DNA from: Sulfurisphaera javensis
Lineage (GTDB): Archaea; Thermoproteota; Thermoprotei_A; Sulfolobales; Sulfolobaceae
DNA length: 64,000 bases
NCBI RefSeq assembly: GCF_041154675.1
Contig: NZ_AP031322.1
Location: 1,240,001-1,304,000 of the forward strand
Direction: 5' to 3'
A model generated the notes under the pieces. That model saw only the letters and a program-made list of their open reading frames with translations, had not been told where the DNA came from and did not search any database. Shown one piece after another: positions 7,369 to 56,468 of the stretch; positions within the stretch are counted from its first letter, which is position 1; each line of letters starts with the position of its first letter. The position numbers and the translations under genes are program-made.

Positions 7369-7469
7369 GCGGGGGTGCCCGAGCAAGGTCAAAGGGGACG
7401 GGCTCAGGACGTAAAAAGTGAGATCCCCGTTGGCGAAGGCCTGCGTGGGTTCAAGTCCCACCCCCCGCA
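7369..7469 (+). tRNA. tRNA-Leu (CAG) with intron; attachment site
   Basis: Acceptor GCGGGGG/CCCCCGC, T arm GTGGG-TTCAAGT-CCCAC, class-II variable arm, discriminator A. Anticodon stem ACGGG/CCCGT with loop CTCAGG gives CAG; an intron of about 16 nt (7409-7424) follows position 37. The last 19 bases of the gene plus two recur exactly at 9359-9379. Confidence 0.9.
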
Positions 7470-7471
7470 TT
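7451..7471 (+). repeat. attL copy (tRNA-Leu 3' end)
   Basis: First copy of the 21-bp direct repeat, inside tRNA-Leu(CAG) plus two bases. Confidence 0.8.
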
Positions 7472-7649
7472 TTATTACAATATTGTTTATTTTTCAAAGA
7501 AGAACTAAATTGATATAAAACTTAATAGATCTAAAATTCTCACAATTTAAATTAATATGTTAAAGAAATTCTAATCAATTTTATAGAGAAATTTCATTTA
7601 AATTCTTCTTTTGAAAATTTTTATGAAAAGTTAAAGGATAGTATAATAT

Positions 7650-9302
7650 ATGTCTTCTCAAGAGCCTCAAGAGCAAGTGTTAAAGCAAATAGCAGATAAT
7701 TCAGCTGGATATGAGTACGTGATACAATCGTATATTAGACAATACATTCAACTAGAAGAATTATACAAATATGCTTATTATACAAATTATTATTCATTAT
7801 TAGTTGAGGCTATAGCATCAAAACAATTATCAGAACAATATGCTTTACGATTAGAGGAAGAAGCAAAATGCTTAGTAACAGGAAATTATGATACATACAA
7901 TCAAAATAAGTTCTGGCTATACCCAGCAATAGCTATAGCTGAAAGCATAGCTTCAACAACAAACTCACTCATAGACATTATAAGACAAGGTATTATAGTA
8001 CAAGAGAAAGATTCAGATATACTATATTATATTGGAGGATGCTCAAAATATTGGAGATCTGGTAATATAATAGTATTCCAAGGAGGAAAACAATTCGGAA
8101 CAGCAGATAAACAAAGAGTAAAAGTTCACGGAGTAGGCAAACTCAAGGCTAACCAACTAGACATCTATTCCAATTCTATTACAGATGATTTAATGGAAAT
8201 ATGCATAATACCAATACTACCCCCTAAAGGTTTCAATTGGATAAACCCAACATACTACTCACTACCAAATGCAAACTATCAAGAATCAGTAAACGAAAAC
8301 GTACTTAAAATAGCTATAGCACAATTATTAACATACCAACCAGATATAATCTACTTAACACTTACGTATTCCAAGAACTTTTATTATACTAGTAATGGAC
8401 ATTATTACATTAGTCTTGGAATAATTAATTTCTTATCTTCAGTGAGTGGTGTTTTTCCTTATCCTTATCCAGCATATTATACTTCTGGTGTTGAGTATGC
8501 TGGAAACTATGATCCATCAATATTTTTAGGCAAGGTATATGTCTTAGCAGATTCAACAAAATCTTCACCATTCTACTCTAAAAAGGGAATATTATATCCA
8601 GAAAAATATAATGGACTAACATCTTCCTTATTCACTATTAATAAGGCTTCTATTGGTAGTCCTGTTTTTACTAGTACTTGGGCTGGTGGTACTTCTTGTA
8701 GTAGTTATGGTGTTGTTGGTTTGGTTTCTGGTATTGTGAACTATTGGGTTAAGATTGGGAATAGTGTGGTTTCTAAGGCTCAAGATAGTAGTATATTGGA
8801 AAGTGTTCCGGATGATTTTGATATTGGTTTATATATTTTGCCAGTTATTAGGCTTCCTACTGATTTTACGCGTCAAGGTATGTTAAAATTTGCTGCTGGT
8901 TTAAAGCAAGAGAAGGCTGTTGAGATAGGATTGGAGGTTATAAGTAAGGCTAAGAGGGCAATGAGTGAGTTAATTTCTGCTGGTATCTTATCTAGTATTG
9001 CGTTTGCAGCAGTTGTAGCAGTGGATGAGTGGGATGAGGTTAATCAAATAGTTCAAGATGCTAAACCTTATGTTGAAAAATTAAATAAGGTTTATAATGA
9101 AGTACTTTCTCAAGTGAACTCTTGTATAGAAGCACAACCAAATTTACCAAGGAATGCGAAAATAATGTATGAACAGCAAGCACAACAGTATTTAAACGGA
9201 TTAATGAATTATATGAATGCGAAAGCTGATGAAGATGAATTAATTGAACTATTAATATCTGAAATGGATAACTATCTTGAAAGTCAAGGAATAGAATGCT
9301 AA
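7650..9302 (+). CDS. Large protein of unknown function, only gene of the tRNA-Leu unit
   Basis: 550 residues; no confident family. Residues 1-115 are helical and Tyr/Gln-rich; 130-400 look beta-rich with many aromatic residues; 410-545 are helical (coiled-coil-like, one hydrophobic helix at about 437-458). A stretch NKASIGSPVF...YGVVGLVSG (331-361) resembles the last motif of trypsin-like folds, but the residue expected to be the nucleophile reads Ile and the other catalytic positions cannot be placed; this is a weak hint only. No signal peptide. A TATA-like TTTTTATG near 7617-7624 fits a nearly leaderless mRNA. Codon style changes sharply at about 8640, from A- and C-ending codons to T- and G-ending ones, which suggests a mosaic gene. 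Confidence 0.85.
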   Translation: MSSQEPQEQVLKQIADNSAGYEYVIQSYIRQYIQLEELYKYAYYTNYYSLLVEAIASKQLSEQYALRLEEEAKCLVTGNYDTYNQNKFWLYPAIAIAESIASTTNSLIDIIRQGIIVQEKDSDILYYIGGCSKYWRSGNIIVFQGGKQFGTADKQRVKVHGVGKLKANQLDIYSNSITDDLMEICIIPILPPKGFNWINPTYYSLPNANYQESVNENVLKIAIAQLLTYQPDIIYLTLTYSKNFYYTSNGHYYISLGIINFLSSVSGVFPYPYPAYYTSGVEYAGNYDPSIFLGKVYVLADSTKSSPFYSKKGILYPEKYNGLTSSLFTINKASIGSPVFTSTWAGGTSCSSYGVVGLVSGIVNYWVKIGNSVVSKAQDSSILESVPDDFDIGLYILPVIRLPTDFTRQGMLKFAAGLKQEKAVEIGLEVISKAKRAMSELISAGILSSIAFAAVVAVDEWDEVNQIVQDAKPYVEKLNKVYNEVLSQVNSCIEAQPNLPRNAKIMYEQQAQQYLNGLMNYMNAKADEDELIELLISEMDNYLESQGIEC

Positions 9303-9358
9303 TTTAAATAAGCAACATATTATCATTTTTCTTCTACATTTTGCTAGAGTTATTTAAC

Positions 9359-9379
9359 TCAAGTCCCACCCCCCGCATT
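9359..9379 (+). repeat. attR copy (21-bp repeat of tRNA-Leu 3' end)
   Basis: Exact copy of 7451-7471 without the rest of a tRNA. On the minus strand it forms the last codons and stop of the nucleotidyltransferase-like gene. Confidence 0.8.
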
Positions 9380-10099
9380 AGAATCTACCTTAAATTGACC
9401 AACTTCTTCTGGTTCTTCATACCATTTAACTTTTCTTCCAATCTTAGCTCTCATTTTCCACTTTAATGTTTTTGGTTCTTTTTCTATTCTTTCCTTTAAT
9501 GCTTTCAATTTTTCAGCAACATTTTGTGGAGGATTAAACTCATTTAATAATCTATCAATATTATCAGTTACGGTTGTATAAAATCCCCAGTCATCAGAAA
9601 GCAATTTAGAGATATAATTCATATCTATAGTTTTTTCATCATCATGATCCCCTAAGCTTAGATCAGTAAGGAGAGCGAAAACATCTTTTATATCATTTTC
9701 AGTTAATTTTACAATTTGTAATTTAGTTAAGAGAAGATCGGAAGGGGGAATAGTATAAGGCATTATGGTTAGCCTGTCTTTTAGGTCTATCTTATGGCAC
9801 ATCTCAAAAATGTCTAAAAAAACGTCTATCGTAGAATCTATTTGTGGGTCGTAAAACATTAATCTTCTATCGCCATGCAAAGCGTTAAAACGCTTATTCC
9901 CAATCATTCCAACGCTCTCTAAAACTTCGCTTATTTTCTTACTTTGGCTAGAAAGTCCAAAGAAATCTATATCTTTATATTTTCTTGCAAACATCTCACT
10001 ACCTTTTGGGGCGAGTATTGCTACTGCAGCACCCCCAATTAATCTCAGTATTATATTTTTATCTCTGGCTTTATCAATTATCTCTTTGCCTCTTTCCAA
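9359..10099 (-). CDS. Nucleotidyltransferase-like protein (MNT/AbiEii-type fold)
   Basis: 246 residues. RLIGGAAVAILAP followed by RKYKDIDFFGLSSQS is the G-G-x-A ... D-x-D arrangement of minimal nucleotidyltransferases; a further acidic position is in DSTIDVFLD. Such proteins adenylylate or otherwise modify nucleic acid or protein targets and often serve in toxin-antitoxin or abortive systems, but no HEPN or AbiEi partner is visible here. Only a weak TTG start at 10099 is available; the frame opens shortly upstream without an ATG, so the 5' end may be altered. The last codons (N-A-G-G-G-T and TGA) are supplied by the att repeat, so the natural C terminus may have been replaced by integration. 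Confidence 0.65.
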   Translation of the reverse strand: MERGKEIIDKARDKNIILRLIGGAAVAILAPKGSEMFARKYKDIDFFGLSSQSKKISEVLESVGMIGNKRFNALHGDRRLMFYDPQIDSTIDVFLDIFEMCHKIDLKDRLTIMPYTIPPSDLLLTKLQIVKLTENDIKDVFALLTDLSLGDHDDEKTIDMNYISKLLSDDWGFYTTVTDNIDRLLNEFNPPQNVAEKLKALKERIEKEPKTLKWKMRAKIGRKVKWYEEPEEVGQFKVDSNAGGGT

Positions 10100-10470: not shown

Positions 10471-10512
10471 TGCTGCGACCGAGATTTAATCCGGGCCACG
10501 AGCTCGAGAGGC
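10471..10512 (-). pseudogene. Decayed copy of the tRNA-Glu 3' half (relic att site)
   Basis: About 40 bases match the 3' half of the intact tRNA-Glu gene (11184 onward), from the discriminator through the anticodon arm, with scattered substitutions and one deletion. It directly follows the int(N) relic, as an old attachment site would. Confidence 0.8.
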
Positions 10513-11015: not shown

Positions 11016-11183
11016 AACTTGAATTAATGAGGGAACCTTTGCTTTATGCGGAAAAATCAGATCAATTAGCATACTAAATCACTTTACTTATAAGAAAGTG
11101 AGGCTGTTCCAAAATAAGGATTGATGTTTCATTTACGGCTTTATAAAGAGAATGTAAAACCTTTCAATTTAATACAAAATTAG

Positions 11184-11273
<90 letters not shown>

Positions 11274-56177: not shown

Positions 56178-56468
56178 TTATTCATATAATAATATTGCCG
56201 GGGTGCCCGAGCGGACTAAGGGGCTGGCCTTGAGAGCCAGTGGGGATTTCCCCGCGCGGGTCCGAATCCCGCCCCCGGCGCTGAAGGGGGGTACCCCCTT
56301 CAACCCCATTTTCAAATTTACGTAAGATTTTACGACGTCATCTAAAGGACCAACGTAATGTTCCTTTCCGTCACTACTCGACGTTTTCGATAAATAGACA
56401 TAATACTTACTTTTAACTTCACGTATGATTATATCGCCAAACGTATAAGTCCTTTGTTTTTGCGTCAT
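56178..56468 (-). CDS. int(N): SSV-type integrase, N-terminal fragment int(N)
   Basis: Starts with ATG at 56468. QRTYTFGDIIIREVKSKYYVYLS and KEHYVGPLDDVVKSYVNLKMG parallel the int(N) at 1934. The frame then reads through the complement of tRNA-Ser(TGA) and stops at 56178. As at tRNA-Val it is the N half produced by integration; no C half is present up to 57245 and host genes resume there. Confidence 0.9.
   Translation of the reverse strand: MTQKQRTYTFGDIIIREVKSKYYVYLSKTSSSDGKEHYVGPLDDVVKSYVNLKMGLKGVPPFSAGGGIRTRAGKSPLALKASPLVRSGTPAILLYE
56197..56280 (+). tRNA. tRNA-Ser (TGA); attachment site
   Basis: Acceptor GCCGGGG/CCCCGGC, anticodon stem CTGGC/GCCAG with loop CTTGAGA giving TGA, long variable arm TGGGGATTTCCCCG, T arm GCGGG-TCCGAAT-CCCGC, discriminator G. 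No intron. Its 3' end borders an int(N) fragment. Confidence 0.95.
56283..56301. repeat. GC-rich hairpin between tRNA-Ser and int(N)
   Basis: GAAGGGGG-GTA-CCCCCTTC is a perfect 8-bp stem with a 3-base loop, two bases after the tRNA 3' end. Confidence 0.7.

Follow-up and report, generated by a model that had tools for sequence, protein, structure and literature searches.

The window analysed here is a 64,000-nucleotide stretch of the Sulfurisphaera javensis genome (G000), and it carries at tRNA-Leu(CAG) a unit with a single gene which, on comparison with the corresponding sequence of three congeners, is a lineage-specific insertion. The gene belongs to an undescribed and unannotated family with about 50 loci. 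The unit has been inserted at its present place, it shares a recent copy relationship with a second unit of the same genome, its family is associated with stable RNA genes, and the encoded protein is kept by purifying selection. The explanation that we prefer, with a probability of roughly 0.55, is that this is a recombinase-less single-gene unit from a family that lives beside the stable RNA genes of Sulfolobaceae and spreads from one flank to another, which would have entered here at the tRNA-Leu(CAG) 3' end by recombination of a circle in trans, with a later inversion beside it. What would move is a promoter with one open reading frame, passing from RNA-gene flank to RNA-gene flank without a recombinase of its own.

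The unit is bounded by a direct repeat. The sequence TCAAGTCCCACCCCCCGCATT, consisting of the last 19 bases of tRNA-Leu(CAG) plus two, is found perfectly at both 7451-7471 and 9359-9379, giving a start-to-start distance of 1,908 bp. There is no third match in the window, even allowing 3 mismatches, and no such repeat appeared in 100 shuffles; no terminal inverted pair bounds the unit. The only plausible gene between the repeats is the 550-codon gene at 7650-9302 on the + strand. Its protein belongs to no Pfam or PHROG family, and the unit contains no integrase gene, no int(N) or int(C) sequence and no member of an integrase family. The sequence-only reading, which had described a perfect tRNA-Leu(CAG) repeat at these positions enclosing one gene and no integrase, was therefore accurate in both respects. 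By eye, a TATA-like TTTTTA can be recognised at 7618-7623, about 30 bp upstream of the ATG. The nucleotidyltransferase-like host gene to the right of the unit matches Pfam NTP_transf_5 only below the Pfam cut-off.

Table 1. Features of the unit at tRNA-Leu(CAG) and its right flank, in window positions.
Feature	Position	Strand	Remark
tRNA-Leu(CAG), 16-nt intron	7369-7469	+	insertion site; ARAGORN, Rfam tRNA 43.8 bits
21-bp repeat, left copy (tRNA 3' end + 2 bp), attL-like	7451-7471	+	
Left flank of unit and promoter region	7470-7649	+	
550-codon gene	7650-9302	+	member of Sulfolobaceae-specific family, function not assigned
56-bp spacer, stop codon to right repeat	9303-9358	+	missing from tRNA-Leu(TAG) sister copy
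21-bp repeat, right copy (tRNA-Leu 3' end), attR-like	9359-9379	+	
Nucleotidyltransferase-like host gene, displaced right flank outside unit	9359-10099	-	homology from 9386

The congeners G001, G002 and G003 all have the same order of speE, tRNA-Ser(CGA) and tRNA-Leu(CAG), and in all three tRNA-Leu(CAG) has neither the family gene nor a second repeat; it is for this reason that we regard the unit as an insertion. An empty site in relatives is thus found three times. In G001 and G003 the nucleotidyltransferase gene lies on the + strand about 380 bp past tRNA-Leu, and in G002 an additional 1.1-kb insertion separates the tRNA from this gene, again on the + strand. Homology between the window and the congeners stops at 7477, which is 8 bp past the tRNA, and restarts at 9386 in inverted orientation: the nucleotidyltransferase gene is reversed in the window, and its last codons (the 3' end) have been replaced by the right repeat. 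When the site is compared with a collinear attB, it is therefore empty in three congeners, with the right flank of the window inverted and truncated. Since the right repeat is fused to an inverted, truncated host gene, the right end is not simply an attR followed by the original flank.

It is worth adding that at three G000 loci with family units an adjoining segment is inverted in situ when compared with congeners. The flipped segments are the nucleotidyltransferase gene (window 9359-10099), tRNA-Gln and tRNA-Arg separately, and tRNA-Ser; the coordinates of those outside the window are L009 6107-6192 and 9084-9561, and L012 5037-5173. A degenerate copy of the 3' part of tRNA-Phe is present at 10471-10512 on the - strand, 0.7 kb from tRNA-Phe itself (11183-11273), and the interval from tRNA-Leu to tRNA-Phe in the window resembles a rearrangement hot spot.

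The same genome has a decayed sister copy of the unit downstream of tRNA-Leu(TAG) (L010 4925 to 4121), with 91-98% identity to the window unit. The identity is 92% from the tRNA through 7540 (tRNA and flank) and 91% over 7587-7914, then after an internal deletion 98% over 9094-9302, and it ends at the stop codon; the parts of the left flank common to both are 7470-7540 and 7587-7649. The two tRNA genes share the 20-nt 3' end TCAAGTCCCACCCCCCGCAT exactly, and tRNA-Leu(TAA) of the same genome has it with 1 mismatch. Because this end is common to several tRNA-Leu genes, the right repeat could derive from any of them. In the simplest geometry there would have been a circle of 1,908 bp with a single tRNA-Leu 3' end, which arose at the tRNA-Leu(TAG) locus or is shared with it. 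Recombination between this end and its counterpart in tRNA-Leu(CAG), through an integrase or homologous recombination acting in trans, would have inserted the circle, and the nucleotidyltransferase segment would have been inverted after the insertion. No circular form of the unit and no helper integrase for it was seen.

A different origin of the right repeat, which we consider unlikely, is that the host once had another tRNA-Leu gene here in direct orientation and that the repeat is what is left of it. The unit would then have been copied between the two tRNA-Leu genes by homologous recombination or gene conversion, without site-specific integration. The shared 20-nt end is consistent with this, as is the similarity of the sister, which extends through the tRNA-Leu gene itself; moreover a family gene lies between two complete direct-orientation tRNA-Leu genes in three other genomes (G016, G024 and G028) and between two tRNA-Lys genes in G023. 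However, the congeners have a single tRNA-Leu(CAG) at this place with no second tRNA-Leu, the match ends abruptly after 21 bp and nothing of the remaining tRNA can be recognised, and other recent copies of the family exclude the adjoining tRNA.

Homologues were collected by searching first the genome itself, then the genomes of relatives, and finally with a profile of 22 members. The profile has matches in 16 of the 31 Sulfolobaceae genomes and none in the other 15, and a single-protein query found no match in any of the 29 genomes that represent other families of the order. Searches with the 22 members against Pfam, PHROGs, NCBIfam and PADLOC, and with a profile against PDB, gave only chance-level matches, scattered over coiled-coil and helical regions, and membership of a known protein family was rejected on this basis. 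In the part of the literature that was covered, no RNA-gene-adjacent family was found to have been described for Sulfolobales. The open reading frames of the family units have about 470-590 codons. Values of dN/dS are 0.14-0.46, both between orthologues and between recent copies, from which it follows that the protein is maintained.

The alignment of 45 members offers some clues as to what the protein is not. The columns conserved in at least 72% of members consist mostly of C, G, P and W; the others are A, Q, S and L, with one R and one Y, and no D, E, H or K column reaches this level; nor was a conserved catalytic set (R-H-R-Y, DDE, HUH or Ser) found. The lack of conserved D, E, H and K argues against a nuclease, a transposase or a tyrosine recombinase, and it is unlikely, as judged from these alignments, that the family protein is itself a recombinase. 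The suggestion that it takes part in recombination, one of three options in the sequence-only reading, loses its appeal accordingly. A region of the form IGAPVF...G.vGLV recalls, by eye, trypsin-like proteases without the catalytic serine; an inactive trypsin-like fold is only a lead, as the single-sequence AlphaFold2 model has a pLDDT of 38 and is unusable.

RNA genes at the fetched loci were identified with Rfam and ARAGORN and tabulated for each locus across 16 genomes. Nearly every member adjoins a stable RNA gene, either a tRNA (on either side), the downstream side of 23S, the upstream side of 16S, or SRP RNA together with tRNA-Ser. Relatives at other tRNA genes are therefore at hand, including the one at tRNA-Leu(TAG) in the same genome. 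The location was tested on 28 separate loci in G000, G011 and G023, using complete tRNA maps of these three genomes; some loci are orthologous, so that the 28 are not fully independent. Of the 28, 21 are no more than 1 kb from an RNA gene, against 1.6 expected, and 27 are no more than 4 kb away, against 3.4 expected; the chance of the 1-kb association is 8e-5 or lower in each genome. The exception is G000 685273 (L153 4386-5876; G000 ~684385-685875), with no Rfam or stable RNA gene within 5 kb, where there may be an unrecognised RNA gene or a true exception. Two dispersed MITE-like repeats from the same genus, rather than other single genes, served as the control, at 40 places: 2 of the 40 lie within 1 kb of a tRNA, compared with 20 of the 28 family loci (Fisher P=6e-9). 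The two repeats are exemplified by L104 3000-4073 (with inverted ends of about 45 bp) and L104 2653-3390. As they show no preference for tRNA flanks, a general tRNA-hotspot effect was rejected, and read-through from the RNA genes was rejected because side and orientation relative to them are mixed.

The same location data fit both delivery to the flanks and selective retention there. The family could be an ordinary host paralogous family that needs stable RNA neighbours to work, for instance because its protein affects transcripts made close by or the chromatin of the locus; movement would then be incidental and copies elsewhere would have been lost by selection. Purifying selection is in keeping with such a role, and so are the old clades specific to one location at 23S, tRNA-Asp and tRNA-Ala. 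We nevertheless find it rather improbable, given the sporadic presence of the family (with 15 of 31 Sulfolobaceae genomes lacking it), its frequent decay to fragments, and its occurrence on either side of the RNA gene and in either orientation.

These old clades come from a tree of 56 members (made by a quick method, with uncertain long branches), in which each of them is tied to one location, and younger clades are spread over several; G023, for example, has four close copies at tRNA-Pro, tRNA-Gly, tRNA-Lys and tRNA-Gln/Met. Because the deep clades keep one location, much of the RNA-gene pattern reflects old residence and not ongoing movement. Four recent copy pairs do, however, connect one RNA flank with another, and what they have in common is mostly the promoter and the open reading frame. 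In G001, L103 and L104 are 99.7% identical across 1,471 bp, a stretch that starts 72 bp upstream of the ATG and reaches the stop region, and the L104 copy is 268 bp from a 3' fragment of tRNA-Met. In G023, L138 and L141 (at tRNA-Pro and tRNA-Gly) are 95.8% identical across 1,505 bp; here the shared stretch starts about 75 bp upstream of the ATG and ends 30 bp beyond the stop. The units at tRNA-Leu(TAG) and tRNA-Leu(CAG) of G000 are another such pair, and in the last a fragment between tRNA-Met and tRNA-Asn of G000 matches, at about 90% identity, the copy that lies between tRNA-Gln and tRNA-Arg; in G001 tRNA-Met and tRNA-Asn are separated by 136 bp only. Filled and empty sites are also found: G023 has a copy at tRNA-Pro and none at tRNA-Ala, and G025 has one at tRNA-Ala and none at tRNA-Pro. 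At tRNA-Gln both G001 and G003 have a copy, and the site is empty in G002, where the overlap is 8 bp.

When the ends of the recent copies were aligned and inspected by eye, neither terminal inverted repeats nor a clear target duplication was found. As a general copying route, homologous recombination through the tRNA was considered; it is possible for the Leu/Leu pair, and was rejected for the family since the Pro/Gly and L103/L104 copies exclude the tRNA. One member (L012 5303-6823) is chimeric, belonging mostly to the tRNA-Gln/Arg clade and in its last ~100 residues to the tRNA-Leu clade, which implies that family copies recombine with each other. In G014, L120 3358-18960 contains five full-length copies and one partial mosaic copy downstream of 23S rRNA, in both orientations, which have about 50 bp before the ATG in common and differ in their last codons.

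A direct repeat of part of a tRNA surrounds the family gene at only 1 of 33 loci, which is the window copy, and integration by a tRNA att site is therefore not the general route of the family, since relatives also occupy 23S, 16S and SRP RNA loci as well as the 5' flanks of tRNA genes. The mobility proposed from the sequence alone thus holds as regards the insertion, the relatives at other tRNA genes and the missing integrase, and fails as regards the repeat as a mode for the whole family. This restriction of the 21-bp repeat to the window copy, its length below the usual 40-50 bp, the rearranged right flank without a clean attR and original flank, and the old residence of the deep clades all count against the explanation that we prefer. 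Among the three options originally offered, movement in trans is the most plausible, with the enzyme supplied in trans being our inference. The option of a smallest remnant of something larger is disfavoured for the family, since each of its recent copies was transferred as a bare gene, some 1.5 kb long.

For the window unit in particular, we think it very unlikely that it is the last remnant of a larger, decayed virus or plasmid integrated in tRNA-Leu. Integrating elements of archaea do usually target tRNA genes, and an SSV-type int(N) is present at another tRNA of the window (56178-56468), but no relative of the family was present in 50,697 phage records or 72,556 plasmid records, the recent copies are sharply delimited bare genes, and 23S, 16S and SRP RNA loci are unusual integration sites. 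The only lead from IMG/VR, a weak one (L100, 27% over 73 residues), was dropped, as it was not recovered when the L100 open reading frames were entered into the family profile search. The int(N) just mentioned is an N-terminal remnant of an SSV-type integrase (Pfam PF07935, E=2.6e-17), lies on the - strand at tRNA-Ser(TGA) (56197-56281), and points to a past fusellovirus-like integration there.

The consequences differ according to which account of the RNA-flank bias is correct. If copies are truly delivered to the flanks of RNA genes, there would be an archaeal targeting system, a one-gene unit with no known recombinase, that no described element explains. If selection keeps them there instead, the action of the protein must take place close to stable RNA genes, which would point to an unrecognised component of the machinery by which Sulfolobaceae express or protect such genes. 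Either way, some 50 unannotated loci gain a strong and testable context.

Among known systems, the tyrosine-recombinase elements of SSV and pNOB8 type resemble the window unit in having a direct repeat of the tRNA 3' end around an insertion that is absent from relatives (PMC8371274). The window unit differs in having a single gene, no integrase gene or fragment, and a repeat of 21 bp, compared with the 40-50 bp usual for the tRNA repeats of Sulfolobales integrases (PMC8371274). Furthermore, the relatives of its gene lack such repeats and are found also at rRNA and SRP RNA genes. Archaeal MITEs and IS elements are likewise short units, with a need for enzymes in trans, but the family has a full-length conserved open reading frame and neither terminal inverted repeats nor a clear target duplication, and the two MITE-like repeats of the same genus do not share its preference for tRNA flanks. 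The fusellovirus satellites pSSVx and pSSVi replicate, have several genes and measure 5 kb or more. The window unit resembles them in being small and in that it would depend on functions in trans; unlike them it consists of one gene of unknown kind, with no replication gene and no viral homologue. The RNA polymerase III-targeting retrotransposons Ty1, Ty3 and Dictyostelium TRE (PMC5911963) also have copies that cluster beside tRNA and small RNA genes in a compact genome, whereas the archaeal family has a single open reading frame without reverse transcriptase or integrase, is found also beside 23S and 16S, and has a movement that is putative. We suggest tentatively, and with rather less than even confidence, that specific delivery places the Sulfolobaceae units beside stable RNA genes (tRNA, 23S, 16S and SRP RNA), in which case they would be a counterpart of the eukaryotic Pol III-gene elements in their targeting and not in their machinery.
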